Shown: positions 37,391-64,000 of the stretch, piece after piece
How positions within the stretch are numbered: the stretch's first letter is position 1
Layout: every line of letters begins with the position of its first letter
Assembly (NCBI GenBank): GCA_019448385.1
Contig: JAGTXO010000024.1
Span: forward strand, 474,001 to 538,000
DNA length: 64,000 nt
Origin: Diacronema lutheri
Taxonomy: Eukaryota; Haptophyta; Pavlovophyceae; Pavlovales; Pavlovaceae
Direction: 5' to 3'
The notes under the pieces: model-generated
Databases searched by the model: none
What the model was told of the DNA's origin: nothing
What the model saw: only the letters and a program-made list of their open reading frames with translations
Translations under genes and position numbers: made by a program

Positions 37391-37422
<32 letters not shown>

Positions 37423-38537
37423 CGCGTGCTCTCCGGCGGGCTCGGGCAGGTGTGGCGGCGGCCGCGCATCGCCATCGACGTGGACGCGCAGGAGGCGGCG
37501 GACGAGGGCGCGGACGACGGGCAGGCCGTGAGCGCAGCGGGCGGCCCGCCCGCCGCTGAGCGCGACATGCGCACACTTCTCGCCTACCAGGCGGAGCTCG
37601 AGGCGGCGTTGCGCGCGCGCCTCGACGAGATGGCCGCGCGCGAGGCGGGCCTCGCCCGGCAGCAGCAGGTGGCCGAGTCGGCGTGGGAGCGGCGCTTCGC
37701 GCAGGCGATCTCGACGGTCGCCGCGCGCGAGCGCGCGCTCGATGCCGCCGCGTCGCTGCTCGAGTTGCGCGAGCGCGCGCTCAGCGCGAAGGAGCTCGCC
37801 GCGCAGCTGCGCGCGCGCGCGCTCGCCGCCGCGGCGTCGGCCGCCGGCCCCGACGTGGTGGCGGAGGCGGCGGCGGCGGCGGCGGAGGCGGAGGCAGCGG
37901 CGGCCGACGCGCGCGCCGCGCGCGCCGAGCGGGCGACGGGCATGGGCACGCTCGACGCGCAGTGCGGAGCGGCGGCGACGGCCGGCGCGGGCACGCCCAT
38001 CCCCGACGCGGTCGTCGAGGCGGCCGTCGCCGCTGCCGCAGCCGCCGCCGGCGGCGCGAGCGGGGGCCAGCTGCCGCCGCCGGACCTGCACGCGGCGGCG
38101 GCGGCGGCGGCGGCGGTGGCCGACGGCGACGACACGGGCGGGGAGGCGGCGGCGGAGGAGGCGGGGGGCTTGGCCAGCGCCGGAGTCGGCGGCGCGCCGC
38201 TCGGCGACGCGGGCGTGCGGGCGGGAGCGGGCGCGAACGGCGTCACGTCCGAGGCGCCCGCGCAGTCACCCGCCGCGCTTGCCGACGACTGGGACGAGTC
38301 CGTCGAGGCGGAGTGGGACAGGGCGGTGAGTGCAGAGGGCGCGCGCAGGCCGCAGCGCCCGCCGCTCGATGCGCCCGAGCGCGAGATGGCACAGGCGGCG
38401 GCGCAGGCCGCCGCCGCCGCGCAGGCCGCCGCCACCGCCGCTGCCGCCGCCGCGCAGGCCGCCGAGCCGGCCGCCGCCGCCACCGCCGCCTCCTTCGTGC
38501 AGCCACCGCCCGCTGCGGCCGGCGCCCAGCCGACGCT

Positions 38538-38578
<41 letters not shown>

Positions 38579-38826
38579 AAGCCGCGCCGGTGGCGAGCGC
38601 GCAGGCCACCGCCGCGCCGCGCGATGCGGCCGCGGCCACCACGGAGCTCACGCCGTCCGCCGCCGAGCCGCGGCCCGTGGGCGCGCCGCCGCCCGCCACG
38701 GCCGACGCGCCGCCCGCGCCCGACGCGCCGGCCGCGGCCGACGCGGACGGCAGCGGCAAGGCGGGCGGCAAGGAGGGCGCTGGGCGCACGGACAACGACA
38801 TCCCGCTGACGCAGATGGGCGAGTAG
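35185..38826 (+). CDS. MscS-family mechanosensitive channel with organelle-type N-terminus, two exons
   Basis: The ATG at 35185 (MRHRLARLPSFASRTPPRLR) opens an Arg/Ser-rich mitochondrial or plastid presequence. Transmembrane helices are near AEVILVVATLSLFQLLIRFV, LPLLGLVVSVLGASALDSFA and RWIIGLRLGCDLLLEVALAA. The pore helix region is VWVLTAFALLDTVGVKFQ then ALLTLGGVSSVLLGFVGRDI. The MscS beta domain follows: PFTKGDWIQSIKE, DGWVEKIGWYYTVINTWDKR and PLHLPNSKLATMEVINASR. Exons 35185-36060 and 36400-38826 make 1,100 residues; the intron (36061-36399) has a GC donor (CAG then GCGCGC) and a CTGCGCAG acceptor, phase 0. After the alpha-beta domain a tail of about 550 residues has poly-Ala, poly-Asp, a coiled coil (YQAELEAALRARLDEMAARE) and Pro runs. 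The channel probably releases osmolytes under membrane tension. Confidence 0.88.
36091..36330. repeat. Twenty perfect copies of a 12-base repeat in the MscS intron
   Basis: GCGTCCGGGGCC is repeated 20 times without change inside the 339-base intron, followed by a run of about 22 C before the acceptor. Both the repeat and the intron are multiples of three, so the reading frame stays open through the intron. Confidence 0.93.
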
Positions 38827-46684: not shown

Positions 46685-49390
46685 TCAGCGCGCGCTGAGC
46701 ATGCGCAGCGCCTCCGCCTCGAGGTCGGCGATCGATGGCTCGCGCCGCGCGCGTGCGCCACCCGCCGCCGCCTTTGCGCGCTTGGTTGCGCGGCCGGGCT
46801 CCTCCGTCGCGCCGGCGGCGACAGTGTCGTCCGCCGGCGCGCTCCGCCGCTTGCGCGCGCGGGCCGGCCGCGCGGGCTCGCCGTCGTCGCTGCCAGCGTC
46901 GGCGCCGTCCGCGCCGCCGCCGGCCTCGCCGATCTCCTCGTCATCATCACCGCCGCCGTCGCGTTCACGCACGAGGAGCTGCGCGCCGCCCGTGTCGTCG
47001 GCGTCGTCGCCGCCGCCTTCGCGCGCCTTGGCCTTCGCCCGCTCGAGCCTGTGCTTCTCACGCACGCGCTCGCGCTCGGCGGCGCGATCGGCGGGCGCCG
47101 ACGCGGCGAGTCGCCTACGGAGCGCGGAGACGACCGCGTCACGCGCGCCGGCGACGGCCGCGCCGGGTGGCTGCGGCGCGTCGCAGTCGGCCTGCAGGTG
47201 GTCGGGCGGGGCAAGCGGGTTGCCGTCCTCGTCGAAGGCCAGCTTGGTCGAGAGTGCCGCCGCAAGCTTGAGCGGCAGCTTGCCCTTGCGCAGGCCGCGC
47301 AGGAGCCGCGCTCCCGGCGCGTCGCGCTCGCGCAGCACCTCGTCGATGCCCGCGGCAGCGCCCGCACCTTCGCCTCCGCCCTCGTCGATGCCCGCGTGCG
47401 GGAGGACGCGCTTGACGACGAGCAGCTCGTCGTCGTCGGCGCCGTCGCGCCCCTCAACCGTCTCGCCGCCGCGCGCGTCGCCGCGCTTGGCCGCCTTGGC
47501 CTCGCGCTGCTGGTCGAGGAGGCGGAGCAGCTTGTTGCGCGAGCGGAACTTGCGCGCCCTGCCGCCGCCCAGGCCGTCGCTGCCATCGCTGCCGTCACTG
47601 ACGTCACTGACGTCGCCGACGTTGGCGCCGACGCCGGTGTTGGCGTCGCCCTCGTCGGTGCTGCCACTACCGCCGTCACCACCGCGGGAGGGGTTACCGT
47701 CACCACCGCCGTCACCGTCACCACCGCCGTCGGCGCCGGCTGCGGCTGCGGCGGCTGCGGCGCCCCAGTTGGTGCCGCGCTTCGACGCGCGCAGGAAGCG
47801 GACGCGCGGCACGCCCGGCAGGCCAAGCGACGCGGCGAGCGCATCGATGGGCAGCGCACGCACGTCGAAGACCTCCTTGTCCGCCTGCAACATCACCGAG
47901 CGCGTGTACGAGACGAGCGCCTTGTGCGCAAGCTGCCGCAGCTCCGGCCGCTCGGCGAGTAGCGTCTGCAGCTTGGCGCCGACAGCGCTCAGCTTGGCCG
48001 GGTTCTGCACGAGGCGGCGCAGCTCAACGCGCGCGGCGCGCAGCCGCTCGACGAGCGCGAGCTCGGACGGGAGCAGCAGCAGCAGCGCCTTGCCACTTGC
48101 GCGGAAGCGAGCGGTGCGGCCGGTGCGGTGGATGTACGTCGGCGCGTCCTCGGGCGCGTCGAGCTGCACGACCCAGTCGACGGCGGGGAAGTCGAGGCCG
48201 CGCGCGGCAATGTCCGTGGCGAAGAGCACCGCGCGCTTCGCGCCGCCAAACTGCGCAAAGGTGCCCAGCCGTTTCATCTGCTTTTGGCGGCCGTGCAGCG
48301 CCATGAGCGGCACGCCCGGCCGCAGCGCGGAGAACGCCTCGTGCAAGAAGCGTACCTGCTTGCACGACGAGGCGAAGACGATCGTCTTGGCGTGAAGGTG
48401 CGCCTTCAAGAAGGACCAGAGCGTGTCGAGCTTCGCGCCGAGCTGCACGACCATGAAGTGGTGCGACAGCCGGTCCGGCGTCGCGCTCGCCGCGCGCTCG
48501 TGCACGGCGACGTACTGCGGCCGGTCGAGCGAGAGCGCGGCGAGGTCGCGCACCGAGCGCGTCTGCGTCGCCGAGAAGAGGAGCGTCTGCCGGCTCGCGG
48601 GCAGCGCGCGCACGATCGCGGAGAGCGTGCGGTCGAAGCCAAGGTCGAGCAGCCGGTCAGCCTCGTCGAGCACGAGCAGCTGCAGCCGCGTGAGCTCGAA
48701 ACCGACGGTCTGGTCCATGTGCTGCAGCACGCGGCCGGGCGTGCCGACGAGGATGTTCATGAGCACAATACGACTCGCCTCGGCCGCGTAGTCCTTGCCG
48801 CCGATGATCATGCCCGCCGACAGGTCGTGCCGGCAGCCGGCGGCGCGCAGCACGTCGAAGATCTGCAGCGCGAGCTCGCGCGTCGGCGAGATGACGAGCG
48901 CGCCGCACCCGTCCAAACGGCCCCAGCGCAGCCGCCAGAGCTTTTCGAGCAGCGGCACGAGGAAGGCGAGCGTCTTGCCCGAGCCCGTCTTGGCCGCGCC
49001 CAGCACGTCGCGCCCGGCGAGCGCGTGCGGGATCGCCGCGCGCTGGATGTCGGTGAGGCGGGTGAAGCCGGCGTGCGCGAGCGCATCGAGCGTGCGGCGC
49101 GAGATGGGCAGCTCACCAAACCGCCGCGCCCAGCGCGGCGCGCCCGCGCGCGCGCCGCCGGCGGCGGCGTCGCCGCGCGCATCATCGTTGCCGCCGCCGT
49201 CGTCGCCGTCGCCGACGCTGCCGCCGCCGCCGCCGCCGCCCATACCGTCGCGCGCGGCGAGCGGCGTGGCGCCGAGGGGCGGCGCCTCGTCGACGACACG
49301 GCGCTCAAGCTCCGCGATCTCCTCCAGCTCCTGCGCGAGCCGCCCGCCCTTGCGCTTCTGGCCGCCGTCCTTGCCCTTCGCCGACGCCAT
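46685..49390 (-). CDS. DDX10: DEAD-box RNA helicase, DDX10/Dbp4 type
   Basis: Dbp4/DDX10 acts in the nucleolus on early 18S rRNA processing. The ATG at 49390 (MASAKGKDGGQKRKGGRLAQ) gives 901 residues in one exon. DEAD-box motifs in order: Q motif GFTRLTDIQRAAIPHALAG, motif I LGAAKTGSGKTLAFLVPLL, Ia SPTRELALQIFDVL, Ib LVGTPGRVLQHMD, II LLVLDEADRLLDLGF, III LLFSATQTRSVRDLAALSL, V FATDIAARGLDFPAVDWVVQ and VI TYIHRTGRTARF. Dbp4-specific features include the extended C-terminal domain (LQTLLAERPELRQLAHKALV then SYTRSVMLQADKEVFDVRAL) and a long charged tail with Asp/Gly runs and basic clusters. The conserved blocks are longer and more continuous than in the long antisense frames. About 300 bases lie between its stop and the bL21 start. 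Confidence 0.93.
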   Translation of the reverse strand: MASAKGKDGGQKRKGGRLAQELEEIAELERRVVDEAPPLGATPLAARDGMGGGGGGGSVGDGDDGGGNDDARGDAAAGGARAGAPRWARRFGELPISRRTLDALAHAGFTRLTDIQRAAIPHALAGRDVLGAAKTGSGKTLAFLVPLLEKLWRLRWGRLDGCGALVISPTRELALQIFDVLRAAGCRHDLSAGMIIGGKDYAAEASRIVLMNILVGTPGRVLQHMDQTVGFELTRLQLLVLDEADRLLDLGFDRTLSAIVRALPASRQTLLFSATQTRSVRDLAALSLDRPQYVAVHERAASATPDRLSHHFMVVQLGAKLDTLWSFLKAHLHAKTIVFASSCKQVRFLHEAFSALRPGVPLMALHGRQKQMKRLGTFAQFGGAKRAVLFATDIAARGLDFPAVDWVVQLDAPEDAPTYIHRTGRTARFRASGKALLLLLPSELALVERLRAARVELRRLVQNPAKLSAVGAKLQTLLAERPELRQLAHKALVSYTRSVMLQADKEVFDVRALPIDALAASLGLPGVPRVRFLRASKRGTNWGAAAAAAAAGADGGGDGDGGGDGNPSRGGDGGSGSTDEGDANTGVGANVGDVSDVSDGSDGSDGLGGGRARKFRSRNKLLRLLDQQREAKAAKRGDARGGETVEGRDGADDDELLVVKRVLPHAGIDEGGGEGAGAAAGIDEVLRERDAPGARLLRGLRKGKLPLKLAAALSTKLAFDEDGNPLAPPDHLQADCDAPQPPGAAVAGARDAVVSALRRRLAASAPADRAAERERVREKHRLERAKAKAREGGGDDADDTGGAQLLVRERDGGGDDDEEIGEAGGGADGADAGSDDGEPARPARARKRRSAPADDTVAAGATEEPGRATKRAKAAAGGARARREPSIADLEAEALRMLSAR

Positions 49391-49658
49391 CGCGCCACGA
49401 GGCCTGCCTGAGTTGGGCACTCCAGTCTCCAGAGTCTTCAGACAGTCTGGTCGTTCAGTCTCATCACTCTGTGCGACTGTGCCTACCCGCCCTGCGCCCA
49501 TCGGTCGGCGGTCGCGCGGCACATGCTGCCCGCGCCCACCACCGCCCTCAGCTTCCCGCGCTGTCCACGCGCGAGCGGCCGCTTTTGACCGGCGCAGTTC
49601 CGCAAGCGGAGACCAGTGCGGGCGTCCGGAGTTCCGGAATCCGGACGCCCGTGCGGCG

Positions 49659-50315
49659 TCACCCCGCGCGCGCGCCGTCGCCGCGCAGCACGATTCTTCC
49701 GACCAGCGCCGCCGCCGCAAAGGCGAGCGCGAGAACCGGCGGCGCGGCGGCGAGCGCCGCGCGCTCCGCGGCGCTGAGCCCACCGACGAGTGCAAGCGCC
49801 TGCGGCAGGAGCGGGAAGGCGAGGACAAGGGCAGGGAGGAGGAAGATGGGCGTGCCGAAGAAGGCGAGCGCCGGCCACAGTGCGCGCGCGGCCTCGCCGA
49901 GCGACGCGCGCTCGAAGCCGGCTGCAGTGAGCGCGCCGACCGTCGCGGTGTCCGCGTCAGTGCCGATCCACCACAGGCGCTTGCCGACGGGCAGCCGCGC
50001 CACGGCCTGCGCGGCGAGCGTGCGCAGCGCCTGTTCATCGTCTGCCTCGAGCTGCGCGAGCTCAAGCTCGTCCGCAAGGAAGAGGAAGCCGGCGCCTATC
50101 GACGCGCTCTGGAGCGAGCCGCGCAGCGCGCCGCCATCCTCACACACGAGGAGATCGCTCGGCCGGACGAGGCTGAGCGGCGAGCGGCAGCGCGGCAGCA
50201 CCTCAGCGCGCGTGCCGCGTCGCACCACCAGCCGCGCGCCGCTCCCCTCGGCGACGAGCAGCGCGAGCGCGAGCGCGCTGGCTCCCCATCTCCGAGGCCG
50301 CGACGAGGGTGCCAT
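49659..50315 (-). CDS. Hypothetical membrane protein with signal peptide
   Basis: The ATG at 50315 (MAPSSRPRRWGASALALALL) gives 218 residues; an in-frame upstream extension exists to 50420 but starts with a poorer context. A signal peptide (residues 1-30) is followed by a lumenal or stromal part of about 110 residues containing SIGAGFLFLADELELAQLEA and KRLWWIGTDADTATVGALTA. Two hydrophobic spans follow (ALAFFGTPIFLLPALVLAFP and PPVLALAFAAAALVGRIVL) and a short basic end. Signal peptide plus two C-terminal helices would fit a thylakoid or ER protein. The family is not recognised. It is head to tail with the USP gene, 115 bases apart. Confidence 0.6.
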   Translation of the reverse strand: MAPSSRPRRWGASALALALLVAEGSGARLVVRRGTRAEVLPRCRSPLSLVRPSDLLVCEDGGALRGSLQSASIGAGFLFLADELELAQLEADDEQALRTLAAQAVARLPVGKRLWWIGTDADTATVGALTAAGFERASLGEAARALWPALAFFGTPIFLLPALVLAFPLLPQALALVGGLSAAERAALAAAPPVLALAFAAAALVGRIVLRGDGARAG

Positions 50316-50429: not shown

Positions 50430-52532
50430 TCATCTGCCGGCGGCGACGGCGTTGGTGCATGTGTCAGCGTCTTCGTCGGCGCCGGCATCACCGTTGCTGG
50501 CGGCGACGGTGTGCGCGGCGTCGTAAAAGAGCAAGAAGGCCTGGCTGTCCAGCACCTCGCGCTCAGTCGCCGCGACGACGCGTGTGTCCGAGATGTGAAA
50601 CCAGCCGCTTGCGCCGCCGCGCACATAGGCCGTGTAGTGCCCTCCGCGCATCGAGCCCTGATGCACGACGACCGCACTCAGCTCGTACCCGTACCCGTAT
50701 TGGCGGTATTGCCCGTACCCCCCGCGCGCCGTCGCGCCGTCGACGAGGGGCGGCGCGCGCAGCTGGTCCAGGTGCGTGGGTGGCGGGCCGGCGGCGGCGC
50801 AGAAGGGTCCAAGCTCGAGGCGGAGCGGGAAGTCGACGTGCGCGCTCACCTTGACGCACCGGCCGCGCTGCGCCGCGAACCGCTTCAGGTGCAGCGTGAG
50901 CGTGCGCGGCAGTCGCGAGAGCGCGTACCAGCGCACGGCTGGCTGGCGCGGCTTTGGTGACGGCTCGCCCGCGGGTGCGAGGCGCGCGACGCGCGCCGTG
51001 CACGCATCGCAGTCGTAGCCCGATCGGATCACCTCCTCGGACAAGAATGCCCACACGCACGCGCGCACACACAGACCCTTCGCCTCCGCCTCCGGCCACT
51101 TCGCCTCCACCTCCGCATCGAGCGCGCCTGGCGCACTGTCGTCGGCGGCGGCGGCCGAGTTGGCCGTCGGCGTCTGCGTGTGCGGCATCGTCGGCAGTCG
51201 GCTGTTGCGCACGGCGGCGAGCGCGACATCAAGCGGGATGGCCGGCTCGAAGGGAGGCTCGGCCTCGGCGGCGGGCGCGGCGGCGGGCGCGGCGGCGGGC
51301 GCGGCGGCGGGCGCGGCGGCGGGCGCGGCGGCGGGCGCGGCAGCGAGCGCGGCAGCGGGCGCGTCCACGAGCTGGAGCGCGTGCAATGCGGCCACCAGCT
51401 CGACGGCGGGCGCAGCGGTGAGCGGCGCGGCGGCCGGCGGCGAGGCGCGCGCGTGCACGGCCAAGCGTGCGGCGGCGGCCTTGCGCGCGCTGCGCAGATT
51501 TTCGCGCCGCGCCGCCTCCTTGCGCGCTTTGGCCGAGCCGCCGCGCGGCTCGCTCGGCGGGCGCGGCGAATCTTCGGCGGGCGCCGCCGTCGCCGCCGCT
51601 GCCGCGCGCGCGCCGATGCTCGGCGGCGCGCGGCGCGGCAGAGCGCGCACGGTCGCGCCGGTCGGGGTGCTCGGCGCTGCGCCGTGCGCCGGCAGCGGCG
51701 GCTGGAGAAGGTCGGGCGGCAGCTGCAGGGACAAGTCGAGGAATGGCTCGGCGCGGCAGCTCACACAGCCGCAGCTTAGGCAGAGAGTGTGCGCGCGCAG
51801 CTCGCCGCCGAAGACGAGGTCGACGAGCGTCAGCGGTGGCGGCCCGGCGGGCGCGCAGGCCGCCGGCGCGCTGGCCGCGGTGCGCGCGTCATCGTCGCCG
51901 CCGCTGCCGTCGCCACTGGCGTCACTGCTACTGTCATCTTCCACGTCAAGCGCGAACGGCACGCGCCGCGCCACCGTCGGTCGCGCCGCCCGCTCGGAGC
52001 GGGCGGGCGGGCGCGGCGCGCGCGGCAGCAGCTCGGCGTGCAGCGCGCCGAGCAGCGCGCGGAGCAGGTCGTGCGAATCCTGCTGCTCGCGGCCGCCAAA
52101 GCGGCGATCGTTGGTGGCGACGGCGCGGAGCACGTCCGCCGGCGTGCCCACCGCCCGCCCGCCGCCGCGCGCGCTTGCGCCGCGCGCCGCGCCGCCCGCG
52201 CCGGCCGCCGCCGCCGCCGCCTGCTCGCTGAGGAGCGCGCGCAGCGCTGCAGTGACACGGCCGGGCCTCGCAGCGTTGTGCATGGCAAGCGCATCCGGCA
52301 GGTGCCGCCCCGACGCGAGCGCCTGCAGCAGTGCGTTCGCGTAGCACGAGTTGCCGATGTTTGCGAGCCCTCGCGGCGACGATCGCAGAATGGCGGCCGG
52401 CGCGGACGGCGTGGCGGCGGCATGCGCAGCTGAGCGCGTGCTGAGCACAACAGTCGCCTCGCTCGCCTCCTCTTCCTCCTCCGCGCGGGCGGCCACCGAC
52501 GCACGCCGGCTGCCGCCTCGTGAGCGCCCCAT
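50430..52532 (-). CDS. Ubiquitin-specific protease (USP family C19 peptidase)
   Basis: USPs remove ubiquitin from proteins. The ATG at 52532 (MGRSRGGSRRASVAARAEEE) gives 700 residues in one exon. The Cys box is RGLANIGNSCYANALLQALA with the catalytic Cys; the QQDSHDLLRALL helix follows. The zinc-ribbon finger has LCLSCGCVSCRAEPFLDLSL and, after a long Ala-rich insert, SGYDCDACTARVARL. Then come LSRLPRTLTLHLKRFAAQRG and KVSAHVDFPLRLELGPFC, and the His box YELSAVVVHQGSMRGGHYTA with WFHISDTRVV and QAFLLFYDA. All catalytic parts (Cys, His, Asp) are present. The Ala/Pro insert includes a 12-base GCGGCGGGCGCG repeat near 51280-51345. The split fingers resemble USP16/USP45-like or USP36/42-like enzymes, but no accessory ZnF-UBP domain is visible. 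Confidence 0.9.
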   Translation of the reverse strand: MGRSRGGSRRASVAARAEEEEEASEATVVLSTRSAAHAAATPSAPAAILRSSPRGLANIGNSCYANALLQALASGRHLPDALAMHNAARPGRVTAALRALLSEQAAAAAAGAGGAARGASARGGGRAVGTPADVLRAVATNDRRFGGREQQDSHDLLRALLGALHAELLPRAPRPPARSERAARPTVARRVPFALDVEDDSSSDASGDGSGGDDDARTAASAPAACAPAGPPPLTLVDLVFGGELRAHTLCLSCGCVSCRAEPFLDLSLQLPPDLLQPPLPAHGAAPSTPTGATVRALPRRAPPSIGARAAAAATAAPAEDSPRPPSEPRGGSAKARKEAARRENLRSARKAAAARLAVHARASPPAAAPLTAAPAVELVAALHALQLVDAPAAALAAAPAAAPAAAPAAAPAAAPAAAPAAEAEPPFEPAIPLDVALAAVRNSRLPTMPHTQTPTANSAAAADDSAPGALDAEVEAKWPEAEAKGLCVRACVWAFLSEEVIRSGYDCDACTARVARLAPAGEPSPKPRQPAVRWYALSRLPRTLTLHLKRFAAQRGRCVKVSAHVDFPLRLELGPFCAAAGPPPTHLDQLRAPPLVDGATARGGYGQYRQYGYGYELSAVVVHQGSMRGGHYTAYVRGGASGWFHISDTRVVAATEREVLDSQAFLLFYDAAHTVAASNGDAGADEDADTCTNAVAAGR

Positions 52533-52822
52533 GTTGGCGCGCCTGGCTTGAGGGGCACAATGATGGCGGCGTACCGAGTTGACAGAGGGCCTGAGAGGGG
52601 GGCTGGACTTGGGAACTTGGGGTGGGGTGATGGGTCCACGACGCGCGCCCAGGATGGCACGGCGGCGGTCTGCGAGCCCCGCCGCCCCTGCGCGCGCCTC
52701 GTTACGCGTCCCCGCGCTGGTCGCCGGGCGCCCGCTTGGAAGCAACGGCCAGGCGGCGACCGTTGCTCATCGCGCAGTATGTACGCGCTTCCCAACTGGA
52801 CGCAAATCAGCTCTTGATCAAC

Positions 52823-54358
52823 ATGGAACCCTCCAAAATAATTAATGAATGGATTCAAAGGAAACCTGCTGTTGGCAAGATGGCCGACTCGCCGGCGGCA
52901 CCGCCGGCGTCAACGGCGCGCCGGGCGCGGCGCGACGCCAAGAAGCAGGCGCAGGCGCGCACGGCGGCATCCGTCAAGATCCAATCCGTGTGGCGCGGCA
53001 AGCAGGCGCGCGCCGACGGCAACTCGGCGCGCAGTGATGGCGCGCCGCGCGTGGACAACGCTGCGCGTGCCGGCGGCGCGGCGCGCGCCGACGGCACGGC
53101 GCCGGCCGCCGTCGTGATCGACGTAGACGGCGAAGGCGCGACGAGGACGCGCGCGATGCCGCCGTTGCGTAATGATGAGGCTGCGCCCGCCGGCGCCGCC
53201 GCTGAGGGTGAGCTGCGGCGACGGACGCCGCAGCAGCGCGCCGAGGCGTACGTGCTCGCCGTCGCCGAGGCCGCGCCCGTTGGCGCGCGCGAGCGGCTGC
53301 GCGGCGCCGCGCCATGCGTCGCGACATGCTGGGTGGGGTGCGTGGTCGCGTGCGCACGGGTCGCGACGAGCGTCGGCGCGCTCCACCGCGCGCTGCATTC
53401 CGCGCCCGCCAAGCTCGTCTCGGTGGCGTACGGCGCGCTGCTCTGCTTCTTCGGCGGGCCGTTCGCCGTCTCCTTCGCCGCGATCGAGGCGTTTAACGCG
53501 ATGGGGTGCGCCGCACGTGGCGTCCTCGTCCACTTTGCCCGTCGCCCTGCCGCGCGCGCCCCCACCGCGCCCGACCGGCCGTGCGCCCGCCGCGCCGGCG
53601 CCGCCCCGCGCGCGGCCAGGTGCGCGCGGCTGGTCGTCGAGGCGCGGGTCCTGCAGCGCGCGTGGGCCGAGGCGGAGGCGGCGGACGCGGTGGACAACGC
53701 GCTCGACGCGGATGGCGACGGCGCGGCTGACGTGGACGCGCTACCGCCGCGCGAACTGCTCGCGCGCAAGGCGGCGCTGCTGCTCGCCGCCGTCTCCGAG
53801 CCGCGGCGCGTGCAGCAGGCGGCGGGCGCGCTGCTCTCGGCGTGGCTCGGCGCTCTCGCCGTGCTGCAGCTGCGCTTTGCGCGCGCCGTTGCGCTCGCGC
53901 TTGGTGTTGCGCGAATGGCCACGCCGCCGCTTCTCTGGCTGCTCGGCGCGCCGCTCGGCCGTGCGCTCGGCCCGCGGCACGCGCACTGGGCGCCGGTGCT
54001 GCTCGAGACGCTCGCGCAGGCCGTCGCGACGTCGCTCGCGTGGCCGCTCGAGCGCGGCGTGTCCGCATGGTACTCGGCGATGCATGGCGGGCTGCTCGCC
54101 GCTCGCTCGCTCATGGAGCTCTGCGCGCAGCTCGGCTCGTCGGAGCGCGCGCCCGCACCGCTTCGCGCGGCCGCCGCGCGCGTCGGCTCGCCCGACGGGA
54201 CGCGTGCGGACGAGGCGGTCGGGTACGCGCTCTTCGTGGGCGGCTTCTCGTGCCAGCTCGCGTCGGGCTTTGAGCTGAGCTTCCCGCTGTCGGTGCTGCT
54301 GCTGCCGCTGCTGCTCATCGAGTGGGGCCTGACGTGGCAGCTGACGTGGCTCACGTAA
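52823..54358 (+). CDS. IQ-motif multi-span membrane protein, two exons
   Basis: The ATG at 52823 (MEPSKIINEWIQRKPAVGKM) is chosen as the first in-frame ATG; 52880 is an alternative. An IQ calmodulin-binding motif (AASVKIQSVWRGKQARAD) lies near residue 50. A membrane region follows (LVSVAYGALLCFFGGPFAVS). A 114-base intron (53506-53619; donor GTGCGC, acceptor GGCCAG, phase 2) joins FNAMG to CARLVVEARVLQRAWAEAEA. It is a multiple of three, so the unspliced frame is also open. An EF-hand-like acidic loop (LDADGDGAADVDAL) comes next, then further hydrophobic stretches (FARAVALALGVARMATPPLL and LSVLLLPLLLIEWGLTWQLT). The protein may be calcium/calmodulin regulated. It resembles the EF-hand membrane protein at 20-22 kb in style but not in sequence. 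Confidence 0.6.
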   Translation: MEPSKIINEWIQRKPAVGKMADSPAAPPASTARRARRDAKKQAQARTAASVKIQSVWRGKQARADGNSARSDGAPRVDNAARAGGAARADGTAPAAVVIDVDGEGATRTRAMPPLRNDEAAPAGAAAEGELRRRTPQQRAEAYVLAVAEAAPVGARERLRGAAPCVATCWVGCVVACARVATSVGALHRALHSAPAKLVSVAYGALLCFFGGPFAVSFAAIEAFNAMGCAARGVLVHFARRPAARAPTAPDRPCARRAGAAPRAARCARLVVEARVLQRAWAEAEAADAVDNALDADGDGAADVDALPPRELLARKAALLLAAVSEPRRVQQAAGALLSAWLGALAVLQLRFARAVALALGVARMATPPLLWLLGAPLGRALGPRHAHWAPVLLETLAQAVATSLAWPLERGVSAWYSAMHGGLLAARSLMELCAQLGSSERAPAPLRAAAARVGSPDGTRADEAVGYALFVGGFSCQLASGFELSFPLSVLLLPLLLIEWGLTWQLTWLT

Positions 54359-54377: not shown

Positions 54378-54612
54378 GTATAGATGGTCAAGCCAAATCC
54401 GATCAGGGGCACGATCGAGCGCCCCGAGTGCAGCGCGGGCCATTCGGAAGGACGTCCTTGTGAGGGAGCTCTTCGCGTTTGGCGAGCGGGGGAGCACGAC
54501 GCGCAGCGTTGCTGCGGCGGCGTGCGGGCGGCGAGCAGCGGTCGGGCTGCTCGCGACGAGGCCGGAGCAGACGGCGCCGTGGCCGCCGGCGCAGGTGACG
54601 CGCGCCGACGAG
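54378..54612 (-). mobile_element. 235-base interspersed repeat, copy 2, downstream of the Fanzor gene
   Basis: On the minus strand this block is about 95% identical to 11540-11772, with differences clustered toward its last 100 bases and one two-base indel. It lies 172 bases downstream of the Fanzor-fusion stop (54785), in the same orientation, and about 20 bases after the stop of the plus-strand IQ gene. No flanking direct repeat is visible at this copy. Being downstream of and co-oriented with a TnpB-family gene, it sits where such elements carry the guide-RNA and right-end sequence; that link is inference. Confidence 0.55.
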
Positions 54613-54784
54613 CCGTAGCGAGCGTCCGTGATCCGCACGGCGGTTGGAGCGGGCCGGCTGGTGCGGCGCGCTCGGCCACGGGTGGCGGCGTGCACGGGCG
54701 TGCCGAATGCGGTACGCGTCGCCAGCCGCGCGCGACCTGGGCAGAGCCCGCAAAGCGTCGACCGCTGCGCGGCTCGGCCGTGCG

Positions 54785-57700
54785 TCAACGCCGGCCGCGC
54801 TTCGGCCCGCGCGCGCTGCCGCCGCCGGCACTGGCGCTGGCAGCTCCGCGGGCGGGGGTGCGGGCGCGAGCGCCGCCGCCGCCACCGCCGCCGCGCCCGC
54901 CGCCGTCGTCGCCACCGCCGTCGCCGCCGCCGCCTCCCCCGCCGTCATCGTCGTCGTCGCCGCCGCCGCCTCCGTCGCCGTCGCCGTCGCCGTCGCCCTC
55001 GCCGCCGCCGCCGTCGCCGCTGGCGTCGTCGTCGTCGTCGTCGTCGCCCTCGTCGTCGCCCTCGTCGCCGCCGTCGCCCTCGTCGTCGCAGTCGTCGCCC
55101 TCGCCGTGCACCATGCGCTCCTCACGCTCCCACACCTCGCCGCGCGCCCACCAGGCGAGCACGAGGGCAAAGCGCTCAGGCGTCGACGTGGTGTCGCGCC
55201 CGGCCGCGCGCGCCGCAATGTCGTGCACGTCGTAGAAGATGTTGCGCGCGGCGTTGTAGTCGCGGTGCACGGGCTTCTTGCCGCCGTTGCACGCCGGGCA
55301 GATGACGAGCGCGTGCACCGTGCGCGTGCCGCCCTTTGCCACGGGCAGGCGCGGGTTCTGCGCGAGCTCCGCGCCGCAGCGCTGCAGCCTGCCGCCCTTG
55401 GCGAGCCGCGGCATCGAGCAGTGCATCGACGTGTACGGCTCGGGTACGAAGACGGCCGCGACGCCGCGCCGCCGCAGCTCGCGCAGCAGCCCCACCTGGA
55501 AGGCGGGCGGCGCGCCCTTGGGCTGCGCGCCCTTGTGGTCGTGCAGCCACTTGCCCACGCACACGAGCAGCCGGTCGCGCGTCACGCCGTCGACGCAGTG
55601 CGCCGCGATGAGCGCCTCGGCGACGCGCGCCGCGTTGGACCGCCCGCCGCTGTCGCGCCGCCAGCGCTCCTTGCGGCGCGCCGGCGCGTCGTACACGTGC
55701 TCGGCGGCGCGCTCGCGCACCCGCGCGCTCTCGCGGTGGAAGGCGATGTATTTGCCCGCGTCGAGCACCTTGGCGCTGTGCGCCTCGCCAAGCCGCGCCT
55801 CGTCCGCCTCCACGCTGAACTCCTCGCCGCGCCCGTCGGTGCGCACGCGCCGCCGCGCCGCGTTGGTCTTGGCCGTCTCGCGCGCAAAGCCCGCGGCGCA
55901 CGCGCGCGCGCGCTGCGTGAACTGCCGCCAGACGGCCGCCCGCCCGACGTGCGCAGAGTAGGTGGTGATGTTGCCCATGTTCGGGTCGGCCGCGACGACG
56001 ACCGCCTCCTCGATGTCGATCGCCCGCCGCAGCTCGGAGCCGAGCGCGACGGCGATGCGCCCGTCCGGCCGGCGCCAGCGGTGCAGGACGCTCGAGCTGC
56101 CGGCCGGCGCCTGCGCCTTCGGCACGAGGACGGTCGCGACGGCGTGCACGGCGACGCCATCCGTCACCACCGACGTGACGGGCTGCCGGCCCGGGAGCGG
56201 CACGCGCGGCAGCGGCGCGAGGCCCACCCACGAGCGCCGCGCGTGCCACGGCAGATCGGCCGGCGGCCGCTCGCGCCCGGCGTAGTCGAAGACGCGGTTG
56301 GAGATGTCGAAGCGCGTCGCGAAGACCGCGTACCTGACGCGCACGTCGGACATTGGCGGGACAAACGAGCCGCCTTGAGCGGTCCACTTGATCGGCTCGC
56401 CATCGTGGTCGCGCAGGTCCAGCGCCTTGAGCCGCGCGCGCAGCTCCTTGCGCTCGTCGTCCGGGAGCGTCTCCCAGATGGCGTTCGCGGTGAGGCGCAC
56501 GTTGCGCGGCACCTGCGCGCAGCGCGCGGCGCGCGAGCGCGCGGGCGCGTGACCAACCTGGCCGCGGGGCGGCGCGCACGGCGGCGGCGCGCGCGCTTGG
56601 GCGCTCGGCGGCGGTAGCGGCAGCCGCGCCTCGCGCGCACATTGTGCGTGCGCAGCGGCGCCACATTATACCGCGGCGGCCGGTCGGTGAGCTGCGTGTA
56701 CAGGCGCGCGAGCCGGCAGAGCAGCGCCTGCCCCTTGGCCACGTGCTGCAGGTTGCGGATCTGCACGAGGAAGTAGCGCGTCGTGTGCCGGTCGTAGTTC
56801 CACCTTTTCGTGGGCGCGCACTCGTAGTTGATCTTGTGGAGGACCATGTCGGGCAGGTGGCGGTCGAGCGCGGCGGGGCAGCCGACGCGCGCGCCCTCCA
56901 CGTCGCCGCGCAGCAGCCGCTCGCACAGCTCGCGCACGCGCGCGTTTCGCTGCATCTCGGGCAGCGCGACGAGCGCCTCGTCGCGCTCGACTGCCGCGCG
57001 GACGACGTCGCGGAGCAGCCCGTTCACGACGCGCGATGGGTGCATCAGGCACGCGGTGGACACCTGCGTCGCCTCCGCCTCGAGGATCTCCGTGAGGCCC
57101 ACCGCGCAGACGGGCTGGACGCCCTCGGCCATCTCGCCGACGGCGCGCGCCGTCGCCGCCTTGGTCTGCGCGGCGGCTTGCTCGGCGGGCTTGCCTCGGG
57201 CCGCTGCACCGTACGTGCTCACGTCCTTGTGCCAGCCGATCGCCGAGAAGATCGCACGGACGGTTCCCTTGTCCATCGTGGTCGACGTGTGCACGCTTGT
57301 CGACGGGCCGCCCGACGCCGCGCCGACGGCCTGCGCGCTCGCCACCGCAGCCTCGTCGCGCACCACCTTGTTGATGACGCGGTACGCCTGTGTCGTGAGC
57401 CTGTGCACGGCCGCCGCGATGCGCCGCAGCTCCTTCCGCGCACCGGGCTGCGCCGTCACCGCCTGCGGCCCCGCGTTGAGCGTCGAGCGCTTGACCACGA
57501 AGCCCGGGAGCACGCTGCCGCGCGTGCGCGCCGTCGCGCCGCCGGCGGCGCGCGCGCTCGGCGCAGCGGGTTCGTCCACGCGCGCGCGCTCGACGCCGCG
57601 CGCGCGGGGAACGCTCGGCGCGCGCGCGCCCGCGGCGTCGCGCGCGCTCGCGGCAGCACCCGCCGCGGCGCGCTTGCCCGCGGCGCCCGACACGCCGTGC

Positions 57701-60700
57701 GCGCGAAGCGGCGCCGACGCCAATGCCGACGCCGCGCCCGCGCCGCCGCTGCCGCTGCCCGATCCGCCCGCGCGCCGCTTCTGCTCGTCGCGCGTCTTGC
57801 GGAACTGGGCGACGAGGTCGCTGCTCACGTTGGCCTCAGGCTCCCACGTGTCGGCGCTCTCGTCGTAGCCCCGCCACCTGATCCGGAACTCGAACGTCAA
57901 CTTCTTGCCCGCCTTGCGGCGCTCGTCGACGACCGCCTCGACCTCGTACGTGCGCGCCTCCTCGTCGACGCTCGCGCCCGCCGCGCTCGCGCCCGTGTCC
58001 GGCCACCCAGCGACCGTGCCGCCCAGCCTCTCGGCGGCCGCGCGCAGCTGCCGCTCGCGCTGGGCGGCCGCGGCGCCTCGCGCGACCAGCGCGGGCAGCA
58101 TGCCCGCGCCGCCCGCGAGGCCGTGCGCGCCGACGCTGGCGGTCATCAGCGCGTCGAGGCACGCGAACGTTGCGAGCGCACGCGCGCCATCGTCGCCGCC
58201 GCGCGGCTGCGAGCGCACGACGGGCGATGGCCGCGGCTCCCCCTCGGCCGCGAGCAGCGGCCAGATCGCACTGGCCAGCGCGACGGCATGCGCGCCGACC
58301 GCGACGGCCACGTCCGCGTCGAGCGGCGCAAAGTCGTAGCGCACGAGCGCGGCCGGGCGCGAGTCGTCCGTCGGCCGGTCGGCGACGAGCAGCCCGACCG
58401 GGCGCGGCGGCTCGCCGGACGGCGCGGCGACGGGCACGCAGAGGAGCACGACGAGCAGGCGCGGCGTGCCGCCGAGCAGCGCGCGCGCGGCATCCGCCCC
58501 GTCGGCTCCGCCGCGCGCGGCCGCGGCGAGCAGCTCGGCCGCGCGCGTCGGGCCCAGCGCCGTGCGCGCGTCCTTGCGCGCGCGTGCGCGCGCCGTGTAC
58601 GCGGCGCAGGCGTCGTCGAGCGCCGCCGCGCTGGGCGCGGTGCCAGTCGTCGCCCACGCGCGCAGCGCGTCGCGCACCCGCGTGACGATCGCCTGGTCGA
58701 CTGCCGCCTCGCCGGCAGCGTGCGCCGGCGCGCACGCCGGCGGTGCGGCGGCAGGCGCGAGCGCGGGCGCGCCGTCGGCGCCGTCAACGCCGACGGCGCC
58801 GTCGGCGCGCCGCCACGCGAGCTTCGCCTCGATCTGCTGCCGGACGGCGTGGCAGTGCCGGTCGATGCCGCGCGCGTCGTCGAGCGCGGCCAGCGCGTCC
58901 TCAGCGGCGGGACGGCCGCTCGCGTCCGCGACGGCCTGCAGGCAGAGCAGCGCGGCCGCACGCGCGTTGCACGCGCTCTGCGGCTCGGGCGCGAGCGCGA
59001 GCTCGAGCTCGAGCGGCGACGCGCCTCGCGCCGCGGCGATCGCGTCCATCAGCACGTCCAACCGCTGCACCAGCGCCCTGTGCGCGTCGCGCGACGCGCC
59101 CGTCGACGGCGCGCGCGAGCGCGTCGCCACGAGCCCGAGCGCGCGCGCCGGCGCGCCCGCCGGCGTGTGCAGCACGAGCAGCGCCGCGCCCGCCAAGCTC
59201 GCGTTGCGCGTGACGAGCGCGAAGATGCGCGTCGCCTCGTGCGCGCCCACCGACGCCCAGATCGCAGCGCGATCGGCGTCCGTCTGCGCGTCGCACAGGT
59301 CGCGCACGTCGTCCGGCGCGAGCAGCGCGCCGCCGCCGGCGGAGCGCGCGACGATCGCCCGCGCCTCCGCCACGAAGACGGCCTGCGGCAGGTCGGCGTG
59401 GCGCGCGTCGACGATGGCGCGCGTCGCGTGCACGCCGAGCTCCACGCCGCGGTAGAAGGCGCGCGCGTTGGCCGCGCGCGCGTGCGCCGGCCGTCCGTCC
59501 GCGTTGCGCCTCGCGCGCGCCTGCTTGCTCGTGCGCGCGAGGCCGTCGCGTGGCGGTGGCGGCAGCGTGGCGAGGAAGCGCGCGGCGGGCGGCGGCGCGC
59601 GCACGCCGCGCTGCCGCCGTGCGATGGCCGCGAGCCGCCGGCCCGCCGCGCTGCCGCCCGCGCCGACGTGCTGCCGGCGGCCGAGCGCCGCCGGTGGCGG
59701 CGGCGGCGGCGGCGCGGCGGCGGGCGGCGGCGCGACGGCGGGCGGCGGCGCGGCGGCGGGCGGCGGCGCGGCGGTGGGCGGCGGCGCGGCGGCGGGCGGC
59801 AGCGGCGGCGGCGCGCCGGCGACGGCAGCACCAGTCGGCTTGTCCGCCCACGCACCCGAGACGCTGTCCCAGGCCTTGCCCGGTGGCGCGCGCCCACGCG
59901 GCCGCGGGTGGCGGGCTCGAGCGGCGGGGGGCGGGCGGCCGGCGCGCCAGTCGAAGACAGGTGCAACCGTGGCGGCAGGCGCCGAGTGCCGCGCGTCGGT
60001 CACAGAGCGCGTGGTGCGCGCGGCGACCGTCGCGCGCATGGCGGGCGGGCGGTGAGCAGCGCCCGCCGGCGCGCCGGCGGGCGCGGCAGCCGGCGCGCCG
60101 GCGGGCGCGGCCGCCTCGAGCCCGGCGGAGGCGCCGCGCTTGCGCTTGCGCGTGCCGCCGCGCGTGCGCCTGCGCGCGCGCCCGCCGCGCGCCCGTTCGG
60201 CCTGCGCGTCGCCAGCCGCGTCGCCGGCCGCGTCGCCGCGCCGCACGTAGACGACCGCGAACGCCTCCTCGCCGGTCCCGTCGACGCCGCCGCGCGCGCG
60301 GCGCAGGACCGACCGCCACTGCAGCCGCCGCGCGCGGCCGGGCTCGCACGCAAACCAGCGCCCACCGCGCCTGACGACGGCCACAAAGTCGTCGTCGCGC
60401 CGCCCGCGCCGGCGCGTGCGCAGCAGCACGCACTGCACGTCGAGCCAGCCCTCGTGCCAGTCGGCCGTGCTGGGGGCGACGCGAATCGACTGCGGGAGCT
60501 CGACGCCAAAGCCGGCGAGCCGCACGATGTGCGCGACGATGACGCTCGAAATGGCGGGGGCGCTCGACGGGTCGCCCGCTGCAGCGAGCACCGCCCCGCC
60601 CCAGTGCTCACGCGTGACGCAATCCGCGTCCTCGACGTGCACGTGCGCCACGCTCGCGCCGAGCTGGTGCAGCAACGCGCAGATGTCGGCGTCGACCGTC

Positions 60701-63700
60701 CTCTCCTCCTCGGCCGCCTCGGCCGTGCCGCGGGCGGCGGCGTCGCCTGCCGGCTGCCCGAGGTACGCGATCGCCCGCTCGACGGCCGCGCGCTCCGCAC
60801 GCGCTGCGCTGTCGATCGCCGCATTGCCGACGGGCGCGCGCAGCGCCGCGATCGCGTCTTGCAACGCCGTCGCGTCGCCCGTCGCCGCCGTCGCCGCCAC
60901 CGCCGCCGCGCTCGCGGTGCCGTGCGCGACGGCGTGCAGCGCGGCGGCGCGCGCGGCGGGGATGCGCCCGTCCAGCGCGAGCACGAGCGGCGGCCCGGCC
61001 GGCGTCTGCTGCCGCCGGTGCCGCCGGCTCGCAGCCGGGTGGTCGGCGCGCGCGCGCTCGAGCCGCGCGCGCCGCTCGACGACGCGCGCCCAGAAGGCCT
61101 GCACCCTCGGCTGCGCGAATGCAAGCCAGCCGGCGCCGCGCGTCACGACGTGCACGACGATCCGGTCCTCGTGCCTGAGGTACTGCACGTAGAGCGCTTT
61201 GCGCACGCCGAGGACGTGCATGCCGAGCTGCAGCTGATCGCGGTGCGGCTGCGGCGGCCCGTCCTCGTGCGCCTTGGCGTCCGCCTTGGTGAGCGTCTTC
61301 ACCTCGACGAGGACCTGCTCGTTGTCTTCGGGGAGGATGGCGAGCCCGTCCGGCGAGAAGGCGAACGGCGCGCTCTTGTCGTGCGGGTCCGCACGCACCA
61401 TCGGCAGGTTGCACACGACGGTGATGCCGTACGCGGCCGCCAGCTTGCGCAGCGCGACGGCCTCGCCGAGGATGCCCGCGGTCGTCGCCTTGGTCCGCAC
61501 CTCGCGCCGCCGCCGGTGCACGTACTCGTCGGTGAGCGTCTCGTGCGCGACGCCGGCGTTGTCGTTCACGACGTCGCCAACCTTGCTGCCCGTGACCTCC
61601 TCCCATCGCTCGTCGTGCCAGCGCGGGCTGCGCTGCGCGGGCGCGCCCGCGCCGACGGCGTCGAGCACGCGGCGCAGCGCTGTGCCGTCGGGCGCAGCAG
61701 GCACGCGCGCGCGGTCCTGGGCCTCGCGAGCGTCGAGGACGCAGCCCGTAGTGGAATCTTGGGGTGGGTCGAGCTTGCTCGCCTCGCCGTAGCGGCTCTC
61801 CAGCTGGCGCGGTGCGTCGGCAGGGCCGCCGTCCGTGCGCGCACCCGACGCGCCCGCCAGTGCACGGGGCGCAGCGTCCGAGGCGCCCGCCGCGCCCGCG
61901 CCGCCGCCAATCGCGCCAGCGCACGCGCGCGCCGCGACCTGCGGACGGCCAGCCGCAGGGACCTCGTCCGCTCGGCCGGCCGCTGCGTCGGCCGTCCGCT
62001 TGGCCACCTCGCGCGCGTCTCCGAGCGCGAGCGTGGCTGGCGCCGTCGAGCTCCCGTGGCGTTTGTTCCAAAACTCGAGCAGCCCGCCAAGGAAGGGCGT
62101 GCCCGTCGGGCGGTCCTCGGGCACCTCCGCCAGGATCGCGTCGACGCGCAGCGCGGCCGCCACATCGCAAAACGCGCGCGCGGCGCGCGCCATCCGCTCG
62201 GCGCGCGCGCCGCCGTCGTCCGCCGCGCGGCGGATGGCGTGGCTCACGTGCGCGACGCGGAGCGAGACGACGGCGTGCGCCGGCGCGTCGGCGCCCGTGC
62301 CGAGCGTGTGCCGCCGGATGGCCAGCTGCCCATCGCCCATGCGCGGCGGGAGCGACGCGCACGCCGCGACGGTCGTCTTGCCGGCCGCGCTGTCGCACAG
62401 CCAGCTCGCCTCGCCGCCGCCCGCAAACTCAAAGGTCGCGAAGCCCTCGCGGCCGAAAAGCGCGACGAAGTGGTCGAGCACCGCCTTGTTGATCGCGCGC
62501 GCCGCCGGCCGCGTCGATGCGCCGCGGGCAGCGCCACCCGCCGCGCCGCGCGCATCGCTGCACGTCGCAGGGCAGGTGCAGCCGGACGCGCGCACGCCGT
62601 CCGACCGCGTCCGCGGCAGCTCGAGCTCGCGCACCTTGGGGCAGAACCAGAGCGGGTTGGACGCCTCGAGGCACAGCACGACGAGCCGCCCGTCCGTGCC
62701 GGCCAGCGCGCGCGCGTCGCGCAGCAGCTCGACGGCGAGCTCGGACGTCGCCGCGTGCACCGCCGGCTCGCCCGTCGCGCGGTCGGGCGGGAAGAGGCCG
62801 CCGCCGACGAGCGGGCTGGGGCAGCGGCCGAGCATCACGAGCAGCGGCGGCGGCGGCGTCTGCGGCGCCTGCTGCCCGACCGCAGCCGCCGTCAGCCCGG
62901 CCAGGTCGGAGCTCGTGCGGAGGGCCTTGAGCGCGACGCGCGAGCCGGTGCCCGCCTGCTCGGAAAACGTGGCGAGCATGGCGCACGTGCTCGCCCTCGC
63001 GCCGCACTGCCAGCTGACGCGCGCGAGGAGGCCTTCCAGCGTGTCGTTTTCGCGCGGCCGCGTGACCGCGTCGAGCGCCGCCGAGTCGAGCTGGAGGCTG
63101 CCGGGCGTGACGCACAGCACCGCCTCGTGGTAGGCGCGCAGCAGCTCCCTCGGCAGCTGCTCGGCGGGCGTCGCCGCCTGCCCGCCCACCCACCGTGCAC
63201 CGTGGCCGCCGTCGCCCGCGCCCGCGAGCCGCACCGCCGGCCCGCCCGTGATCGCCGAGGTCGGTGGCGTGCCGAGCGCGTCGACGAGCGCGCGCACGGG
63301 CGCGACACGCCTGCGCGCAGCGTCCGCGCCGACGGCGAGCGCGGCGATCCGAGCGCCCTCCCATGCGCGCTCCCTCGCGTCGTCCCGCGCGGCCGCCGGC
63401 GCGGCGCCCGGCCGCGCGCCGGGCGGCACCGCGCACGCCGCCGCGACGACCTCCGCGCGCGCGCCGGCGGCGTCGGGCGCGTGCAGCTGCGCGAGCGCGC
63501 CAGAGAGCGCGGCGGCCGAGCGGTAGCGGCCGTGCGCCGCGACGAGCGCGTAGAGCACGCGCAGCGCGGCCACGCCCGCCTGGTCGGGCGCGTCGTCAGC
63601 GATGCGCTCGACCTCCCACGTGCGCGTGGGCGGCGGGCTGCCGTCGGCCGGGTCCGGACGCAGCGCCCACGCGCGCTCGACGATCGCGTTGAACACGCCG

Positions 63701-64000
63701 TGCGCGGCGCCCTCGTCAAACTCGGCGGCGCCCGCCGCGTGCGCGCACCACCCGTGCACGCGCGACGTGGGCGCGTCCACGGCGCGCTGCACGACGAGCA
63801 CCGCCGGCCGGTCGACGCAGCCGAGGCTCACCGCCGCGTGCTTGCCCTCGAGCAGCGCCGCCGCCGCAGCCTCGACCAAGGCGTCACCAGGCGCGTCGCC
63901 GACGACGACGGCACAGCCGTCGCCGTACTCGGCCTGCATCGCGGCGACGCACGACGCGACAAAGTCGCCGCCCGCGGCCGCCGCGTGTCGCGCCGCCAGC
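54785..64000 (-). CDS. Giant fusion protein: YqaJ-like nuclease, chromodomain and C-terminal Fanzor (eukaryotic TnpB) RNA-guided nuclease; 5' end outside the window
   Basis: The frame is open from the window edge (first visible ATG 63939) to 56641; a 128-base intron (56640-56513; donor GTGCGC, acceptor GCGCGCAG, phase 0) joins exon 2 (56512-54785). At least 3,008 residues result. Near residues 770-960 (about 61.1-61.6 kb) is a PD-(D/E)XK fold of YqaJ type: GILGEAVALRKL, FSPDGLAIL, VLVEVKTL and HRDQLQLGMHVLG. An AT-hook-like PRGRAP lies near 59.9 kb. A chromodomain is near 57.8-58.0 kb (TYEVEAVVDERRKAGKKLTF, EFRIRWRGYDESADTWEPEA). The Fanzor part starts near 57.5 kb (IAAAVHRLTTQAYRVINKVV). Exon 2 supplies RuvC-I Asp (EAVVVAADPNMGNITTYSAH), RuvC-II Glu (FVPEPYTSMHCSMPRL), a zinc element ending ICPACNGG, and RuvC-III Asp (HRDYNAARNIFYD), then an Asp/Gly tail. 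The first zinc knuckle appears to have one Cys fewer than usual. The intervening 1,000 residues are Ala-rich and unassigned. Confidence 0.8.
56513..56640 (-). other. Intron inside the Fanzor domain
   Basis: Splicing joins APLRTHN to VPRNVRLTANAIWE in phase 0, which connects the Fanzor N-terminal helices with the RuvC part. Read without splicing, the first frame continues as Arg-rich nonsense to 56164, which supports removal. Confidence 0.75.

Follow-up and report, generated by a model that had tools for sequence, protein, structure and literature searches.

Why transposons retain Fanzor nucleases is an open question, and it is raised in an unusual form by a stretch of 64,000 nt from the pavlovophyte haptophyte Diacronema lutheri (GenBank assembly GCA_019448385.1, contig JAGTXO010000024.1, positions 474,001 to 538,000; referred to in full as the window), where a Fanzor is tied, in one giant gene, to an enzyme of an end-resecting type and to a chromatin reader. 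What kind of gene is this, and to what does it belong? The answer that we regard as rather probable is that the gene belongs to a young Helitron-like element of giant size, which would encode a main protein of ~6,000 residues with the terminal order exonuclease, chromodomain, Fanzor and which carries a Helitron-type helicase near its 5' end; the main product is perhaps a polyprotein. The initial annotation of the window had placed a YqaJ-type nuclease, a chromodomain and a Fanzor in one frame with a predicted intron, and this was borne out by matches to PHROG_434, Pfam Chromo and the Pfam target nucleic-acid-binding (TNB) domain as well as by the maintenance of the frame in 6 of 7 copies. The location of all three modules in one frame is thus confirmed, and the splice and a single transcript are predicted from the sequence. 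The features of the element within the window are given below; coordinates above 64000, here and throughout, continue the window numbering along the same contig and lie outside the window.

54379..64000, minus strand: the portion of the mobile element that falls in the window (its 3' part in gene orientation); copies align to 54379 and then diverge
54379..54393, minus strand: element terminus, TATAGATGGTCAAGC on the plus strand of the window, from the junctions of 22 copies
54379..54784, minus strand: 406-nt non-coding tail from the Fanzor stop codon to the element end, candidate omega-RNA scaffold (position; folding of pieces)
54785..56512, minus strand: last exon with the C-terminal Fanzor half (RuvC, TNB/zinc element) and an acidic tail (open frame, Pfam TNB, start of relatives)
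55238..55477, minus strand: Cas12f1-like TNB (zinc) domain (Pfam)
55259..55261, minus strand: third RuvC residue, Asp D2871 (HRDYNAARN), kept in 12/12 other copies and in P0001 and P0002
55439..55441, minus strand: RuvC Glu at the rearranged Fanzor position, E2811 (PEPYTSMHC), kept in 12/12 other copies and in P0001 and P0002
55985..55987, minus strand: first RuvC residue, Asp D2629 (VVVAADPN), kept in 12/12 other copies
56513..56640, minus strand: predicted intron of 128 bp, GT..AG, phase 0, with a frame switch at this point
56641..57522, minus strand: presumed N-terminal Fanzor half, residues ~2160-2453, in the chromodomain exon (position; absence of methionine over 1967-2242)
56641..64000, minus strand: upstream giant exon, open onward to 69903 outside the window (open frame, codon-position GC, copy comparison)
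57796..57948, minus strand: chromodomain, residues 2018-2068 (Pfam and PDB matches)
61213..61620, minus strand: YqaJ/RecE-type PD-(D/E)XK exonuclease core (PHROG_434, Pfam YqaJ, motif residues)

Within the window, the minus-strand frame is open from 63999 to 56641 and, behind the predicted intron, from 56512 to 54785, where it terminates in a stop codon; counted from the window edge, the spliced translation comprises 3028 residues. The donor GT of the predicted intron is present in 8 of 8 other loci checked, and the related proteins P0001-P0004 start at, or at most 4 residues from, the block directly after the splice acceptor, which fits the predicted intron. The assumption that the gene is contained in the window had to be abandoned: its frame runs on to 69903, and a second frame with a coding signature extends from 73603 to ~70000, the gene totalling, together with the Fanzor exon, ~6,000 codons, about double the part inside the window. 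These two upstream frames would be joined by an intron. The "about 1,800 unassigned residues" of the initial annotation remain without a domain match, and ~3,000 more upstream of the window yielded no notable match in Pfam and PDB searches. Pfam matches below the cut-off (ANAPC1, bCoV_NS8, DGF-1_N, BTK and Phage_cement_2) were set aside as chance. Since the local content of guanine and cytosine (GC) is as high as ~78% (range 75-82%) and stop codons are rare, the antisense frame 56494-63999 is likewise open over 2502 residues, and an open frame alone is therefore weak evidence. The coding signature in codon-position GC is maintained along the giant frame.

The exonuclease had been proposed as a PD-(D/E)XK core with Glu, Asp, Glu-x-Lys and Gln motifs, and these were recovered as E846, D884, E899-x-K901 and Q922, all five residues being kept in 6 of 6 other copies. 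PHROG_434, a RecE-like exonuclease family, matches the window copy with an E-value of 1.2e-17 and 65.2 bits. The match to Pfam YqaJ over residues 794-929 reaches 16.9 bits (E 0.0083) in the window copy and thus stays below the cut-off of 22, while the copy on contig C71 attains 28.2 bits, above the cut-off; this higher score accompanies a single H-to-Y difference adjoining the Q motif. Hence, in view of the PHROG_434 score, the C71 copy and the conserved motif residues, the assignment is considered firm despite the weak Pfam match in the window copy. A search for giant proteins among 5.8 billion proteins, with ~8000 candidates scored, revealed no homologue of the YqaJ region, the same holds for a search of equal scope with a 481-residue YqaJ piece, and IMG/VR contained no YqaJ relative. 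The AlphaFold model of this region from a single sequence, with a predicted local distance difference test (pLDDT) score of 36, was unusable. With the phage RecE/YqaJ enzymes of the lambda-exonuclease class the core shares the E, D, E-x-K and Q motifs and the PHROG_434 match, but here it resides inside a eukaryotic giant protein beside a chromatin reader.

This reader is recognized by Pfam Chromo at residues 2018-2068 with 46.8 bits (E 2.8e-12) against a cut-off of 25.1, and by structures in the PDB, namely CDYL (2dnt, 1.5e-9) and HP1 (1kna, 1.7e-7). Y2018, W2042 and Y2045, which we take to be the aromatic-cage positions, are kept in 12 of 12 other copies. A chromodomain in a mobile-element protein is also a feature of the chromoviruses, long terminal repeat (LTR) retroelements that a passage of PMC6338049 mentions, yet in the present case no reverse transcriptase or integrase match was obtained in the frames scanned, and the chromodomain is joined to a Fanzor-type nuclease instead.

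The Fanzor assignment, made initially on a RuvC triad and a zinc element, was upheld by D2629, E2811 and D2871 and by the Pfam Cas12f1-like_TNB match in the last exon, which at 28.1 bits (E 2.3e-6) exceeds the cut-off of 26.3. The glutamate lies beside the zinc element, in agreement with the rearranged RuvC Glu of Fanzors described in a part of PMC10711439. The motif D-X(125-275)-[TS][TS]-X-X-[C4 zinc]-X(5-50)-RD, given for Fanzors in a section of Bao & Jurka 2013 (PMC3627910), is recognizable by eye as D2629, 184 residues, T2814-S2815, MH, four cysteines and RD, the first cysteine pair being widely spaced rather than CxxC. The protein search with the Fanzor exon gave five matches among 7999 candidates scored: P0001 is 94% identical and P0002 46-50%, both with D, E and D in place, while P0003 and P0004 are fragments of 40% identity that stop short of the second residue; P0005, a SAM-domain protein of D. 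lutheri that matched over a short length, was dropped. IMG/VR contained no Fanzor relative, and the AlphaFold model of the Fanzor exon (pLDDT 49) was unusable. A second, more canonical Fanzor family exists in D. lutheri, e.g. at the loci L002, L005, L006 and L008 (on C1, C9, C25 and C69), with an open stretch of 586 residues in L002 and 13 places at 43.9 bits among 148 matches. The profile of this other family aligned with the later RuvC part and the TNB domain of the giant gene at 96% probability, and no alignment was obtained with the N-terminal half (residues ~2160-2453), which is therefore assigned by position and not by homology.

That the gene is mobile is indicated by its copies, which were counted genome-wide in the assembly of 43,492,796 bases in 103 contigs, with up to 3 mismatches allowed for ends and cores and reversed-pattern controls of 0 in each case. 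The copies on C37, C58, C50, C4 and C9 all align until 54379, beyond which they diverge, and the element spans this position to 83497 (C74:557497), its far end lying outside the window. The low end at 54379 reads TATAGATGG... and the high end ...GCGCC[C/G]TATATA. The search for further copies with shared ends, suggested by the initial annotation, was thus productive: 219 low ends and 200 high ends were counted, along with 220 YqaJ cores, 207 helicase cores and 178 N-terminal modules. The counts of cores and ends agree, and an abundant short derivative made up of the ends only is therefore not apparent. Among the 100 low and 100 high ends listed, 52 copies are paired on one contig, 49 of which fall into four size classes (24 at 30.4-32.6 kb, 11 at 21.3-21.7 kb, 7 at 25.9-26.9 kb and 7 at 28.9-29.5 kb), the other 3 measuring 12.7, 16.0 and 57.6 kb. 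By eye, none of the 100 module places listed, out of 178 for the N-terminal module, falls in the 11 paired loci of 21.3-21.7 kb. The element measures ~29 kb at the window locus and ~31 kb elsewhere; 200 copies with a mean of 28 kb amount to an estimated 13% of the assembly. According to parts of the genome paper (PMC8379373), 22.9% of the D. lutheri genome is repetitive, LTRs and long interspersed nuclear elements (LINEs) are the main annotated repeats, and the main text is devoid of the stem 'transpos'; if the 13% estimate holds, the element makes up more than half of that repetitive share.

Among 22 copies with both flanks (C32, whose left flank is short, was excluded), neither a target duplication other than the common TATA nor an excess over shuffled pairs was detected. 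The absence of target duplication is usual for Helitrons. Long terminal inverted repeats were not found at the element ends, and the G outside all the low ends chosen reflects the picking of exact matches. By eye, 8 of the 22 right flanks begin within ~12 bases of a CTAACGRCGCTT-like repeat, which is read as AT-rich target choice, a reading that is not proven. The interspersed repeat (TATA)CTAACGRCGCTT itself has 974 exact matches genome-wide versus 5 for the reversed pattern, e.g. at C4:40371 and C4:227728, and in several copies it directly adjoins the high end of the element.

Moreover, the copies are similar and largely keep a coding character. In five other copies the largest aligned blocks are 97.7-99.8% identical to the window copy, with shorter blocks within the 5' part of C4 and C9 at 87-97%. 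Of 7 copies, 6 maintain an uninterrupted frame, with a length divisible by 3, from YqaJ via the chromodomain up to the donor site, and coding-frame insertions and deletions relative to the window copy (7 in C71, with neighbouring insertions of 29 and 4 treated as one, and 2 in C37) are all multiples of 3, whereas in the comparison region 73604-83497 of C9 only 9 of 31 are. The giant exon of C71 shows an excess of synonymous changes (39 versus 27.6 expected), which none of 300 draws attained; in C9, C71 and C4, the Fanzor exon shows 16 versus 10.5-10.9 expected (P 0.02-0.03), these changes being probably common to all three copies. The catalytic residues are retained in every copy read, i.e. 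in 12 of 12 others for the Fanzor and 6 of 6 others for the exonuclease.

The element is linked to Helitrons by its helicase. When its 5' region (~73601-83497) was scanned with Pfam in six frames, PIF1 was identified in two minus-strand frames (4.4e-23 and 1.6e-16), the C9 copy matches Pif1_2B in addition to PIF1, and a 166-residue piece of the C9 helicase matches a single solved structure at E <= 1e-5, the Helitron transposase Helraiser (7lcc, 3.2e-13). Hence, the element resembles Helitrons such as Helraiser in its helicase and in the lack of a target duplication, while it differs from them in its ends, in the Rep/HUH protein that was not found, and in the added exonuclease, chromodomain and Fanzor; it is called Helitron-like and not a Helitron because no Rep was found.

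Several observations weigh against this interpretation. Pfam scans of the element, which covered the coding frames of 54785-73603, the 5' region in six frames and the 5' 6 kb of the C9 copy in three, revealed no Rep/HUH domain, and PF14214, searched against all six frames of the genome, gave one candidate, on C63, which belongs to another family. A regular-expression search in six frames returned scattered H-x-H motifs, including VAHVHV at 60645 in the giant frame, and none with Y-x-x-x-Y. The ends are TATA...TATA and not the TC...CTRR of Helitron1, and the helicase motifs are split over two frames in both copies read, which requires the assumption of an intron or a break. Several frames are damaged: in C9 a 10-nt insertion breaks the YqaJ-chromodomain frame, the exception among the 7 copies, with 3 stops; C4 carries a 1-nt insertion upstream of YqaJ that breaks the giant frame, C58 a 1-nt insertion that breaks the N-terminal frame, and in L017 the stretch from the chromodomain to the donor is broken. 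The synonymous excess is not significant in the giant exon of C9 and C4 (P 0.12 and 0.10) and missing in that of C37 and C58, no significant excess exists in the N-terminal exon of any of the five copies compared, and substitutions between subfamilies are nearly flat across codon positions. Finally, the entire 3' tail shows structure no greater than chance (z -1.06). Folding support for an omega-RNA in this tail is mixed, given that a 101-nt piece (54458-54558), picked after a DNA fold had been viewed, has a z of -3.7 matched by 0 of 200 shuffles, and three other pieces have values of -1.5, -0.6 and -0.8. Folding of the element termini, examined for hairpins, gave values that point neither way, with a z of -1.5 for the 5' end and +0.7 for the 3' end, and Rfam had no match in L037, a 10-kb piece that comprises C37 copy sequence and the flank to its right. 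As to the C63 candidate, this Helitron_like_N match (C63:35738-36019, L083) is the sole one in the genome, and BLAST against the giant family returned short low-complexity matches only.

Among the rival explanations, two deserve serious attention, although each is on balance unlikely. The frame may be continuous while the working proteins are separate, in that an internal start at M1952 or M1967 or proteolysis would release chromodomain and Fanzor apart from the exonuclease; this is a possibility we entertain tentatively. Methionines at positions 1321, 1651, 1952 and 1967 lie between YqaJ and the chromodomain, and the YqaJ part could be a separate protein if translation starts at one of the last two. 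Two stretches outside the window, moreover, look by eye like what we presume to be H-D-Q-C cysteine-protease motifs, as expected of a self-cutting polyprotein. On the other hand, proteases find no support in Pfam or PDB matches, a genome-wide search for Peptidase_C48 gave 9 matches in 8 candidates as opposed to ~200 copies of the element, and the frame of the YqaJ-chromodomain linker is kept in 6 of 7 copies. Residues 1967-2242, which include the chromodomain and reach into the Fanzor, are devoid of methionine between these two positions; the Fanzor N-terminus therefore cannot begin at a separate ATG in this interval, and the chromodomain and Fanzor would be joined at the least, as a Fanzor made from this exon apart from the chromodomain would be missing its start. 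Alternatively, and with about the same reserve on our part, an unrecognized recombinase of the tyrosine, serine or DDE type might be hidden among the ~5,000 unassigned residues and move the element, with helicase and nucleases as accessories. A short TATA at both ends without further target duplication would also suit site-specific recombination, and no Rep was found. In the frames scanned, however, none of the recombinase families gave a match at E <= 0.5-1, and the helicase is of the Helitron type.

The remaining alternatives fare worse. An integrated DNA virus or Polinton-like element is brought to mind by the length, the RecE-like exonuclease and the helicase, all reminiscent of large DNA viruses; it is very improbable, as Pfam found no capsid, PolB, packaging ATPase or integrase in the frames scanned, long terminal inverted repeats are missing, and neither YqaJ nor Fanzor has relatives in IMG/VR. 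Chance juxtaposition in a GC-rich genome with accidentally open frames would accord with the open antisense frame, yet it is hardly to be believed in the face of independent domain matches, the coding GC signature, indels that are mostly multiples of 3, and catalytic residues that are kept. The initial annotation had left the choice between an element and a domesticated host nuclease. The former stands, with ~200 copies and shared ends; the latter, to which the intact frame and active sites of the window copy might be adduced, is practically discarded, because ~200 similar copies with common ends are dispersed through the genome.

How a Helitron-like element of this kind might employ its Fanzor can be outlined from the intact residues, which make a chromatin-guided and RNA-guided action plausible. 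A transcript that runs off the element end would supply the omega-RNA, with flanking host sequence as the guide; for the candidate in the window, this guide would be expected to be the host flank below 54379. The Fanzor would then cut the empty allele or sister site, the RecE-like exonuclease would resect the break, and the helicase would drive copying from the element, which would thereby be kept or duplicated, while the chromodomain would hold the complex on methylated chromatin of the H3K9 or H3K27 type. A cut-and-copy role for Fanzors beside Helitrons is discussed in passages of Saito 2023 (PMC10432273). The first insertion into a new site would most likely proceed by Helitron-like strand transfer, with a Rep that acts in trans or has diverged beyond recognition. 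A bolder version, in which the Rep initiator was replaced and the Fanzor, joined to exonuclease and chromodomain and aided by the Helitron helicase, copies the element by break, resection and copying in marked chromatin, is considered a long shot; if true, it would amount to a eukaryotic machine able to 'cut, chew and copy' on its own. With ~200 copies, estimated to make up 13% of the compact genome of this alga, the cut-and-copy idea becomes directly testable, and the fusion offers a natural layout for a nuclease in which the recognition of a guide RNA might be combined with that of histone marks.

In the literature and databases searched, from which most subscription papers were missing, no fusion of exonuclease, chromodomain and Fanzor was found. 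Fanzor-bearing Helitrons are already known, and what is new is this domain combination in a giant, abundant, Helitron-like element. SpuFz1 is reportedly a free-standing nuclease with demonstrated RNA-guided cutting by means of an omega-RNA. The likeness to Fanzors of this type, as portrayed in parts of Saito 2023 (PMC10432273), comprises the RuvC triad, the TNB/zinc element and the location inside a mobile element; the main text of that paper is devoid of 'fusion', 'fused' and 'YqaJ', and 'chromo' occurs solely in two 'sister chromosome' passages. In passages of two of the papers that name both Fanzor and chromodomain, one of the two being PMC6338049, the terms occur apart. The closest counterparts are CRe-1, -2 and -3 of Chlamydomonas, Helitrons with a captured Fanzor1 according to sections of Bao & Jurka 2013 (PMC3627910), which share the algal Fanzor, the order D...[TS][TS]...zinc...RD and the Helitron-type element. 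Their Fanzor1 has five to ten exons, many elements have target duplications of 7-19 bp, and the CRe passages of that paper name no exonuclease or chromodomain fusion. Here, in contrast, a gene of ~6,000 codons ends in the Fanzor, and the element that holds it measures 20-30 kb and yielded no duplication.

A few further observations concern the element and its surroundings. At C28:227087-237797 and other places, helicase and N-terminal modules occur with no low end among the matches listed. Several contigs start or end at the element terminus (C1:1, C12:1, C6:2, C8:187138, C32:562155 and C32:1), probably because the assembly broke off at a repeat that exceeds the length of most reads, with placement at chromosome ends as an alternative. 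The 5' part of the element contains a run of 70 C (L014:1110-1179, coordinate ~74110-74179), at which the copies on C37, C58 and C4 are shorter by 44-53 bases. Beside the element, a 575-residue open frame on the plus strand (52631-54358) ends 20 bases before the element end, and the element may therefore sit just past the stop codon of a host gene. Ordinary host genes in the window encode a ubiquitin carboxyl-terminal hydrolase (50430-52766, minus strand), a DEAD-box helicase with an SPB4-like C-terminus (46685-50095, minus strand) and an MscS-like channel (35155-38826, plus strand).

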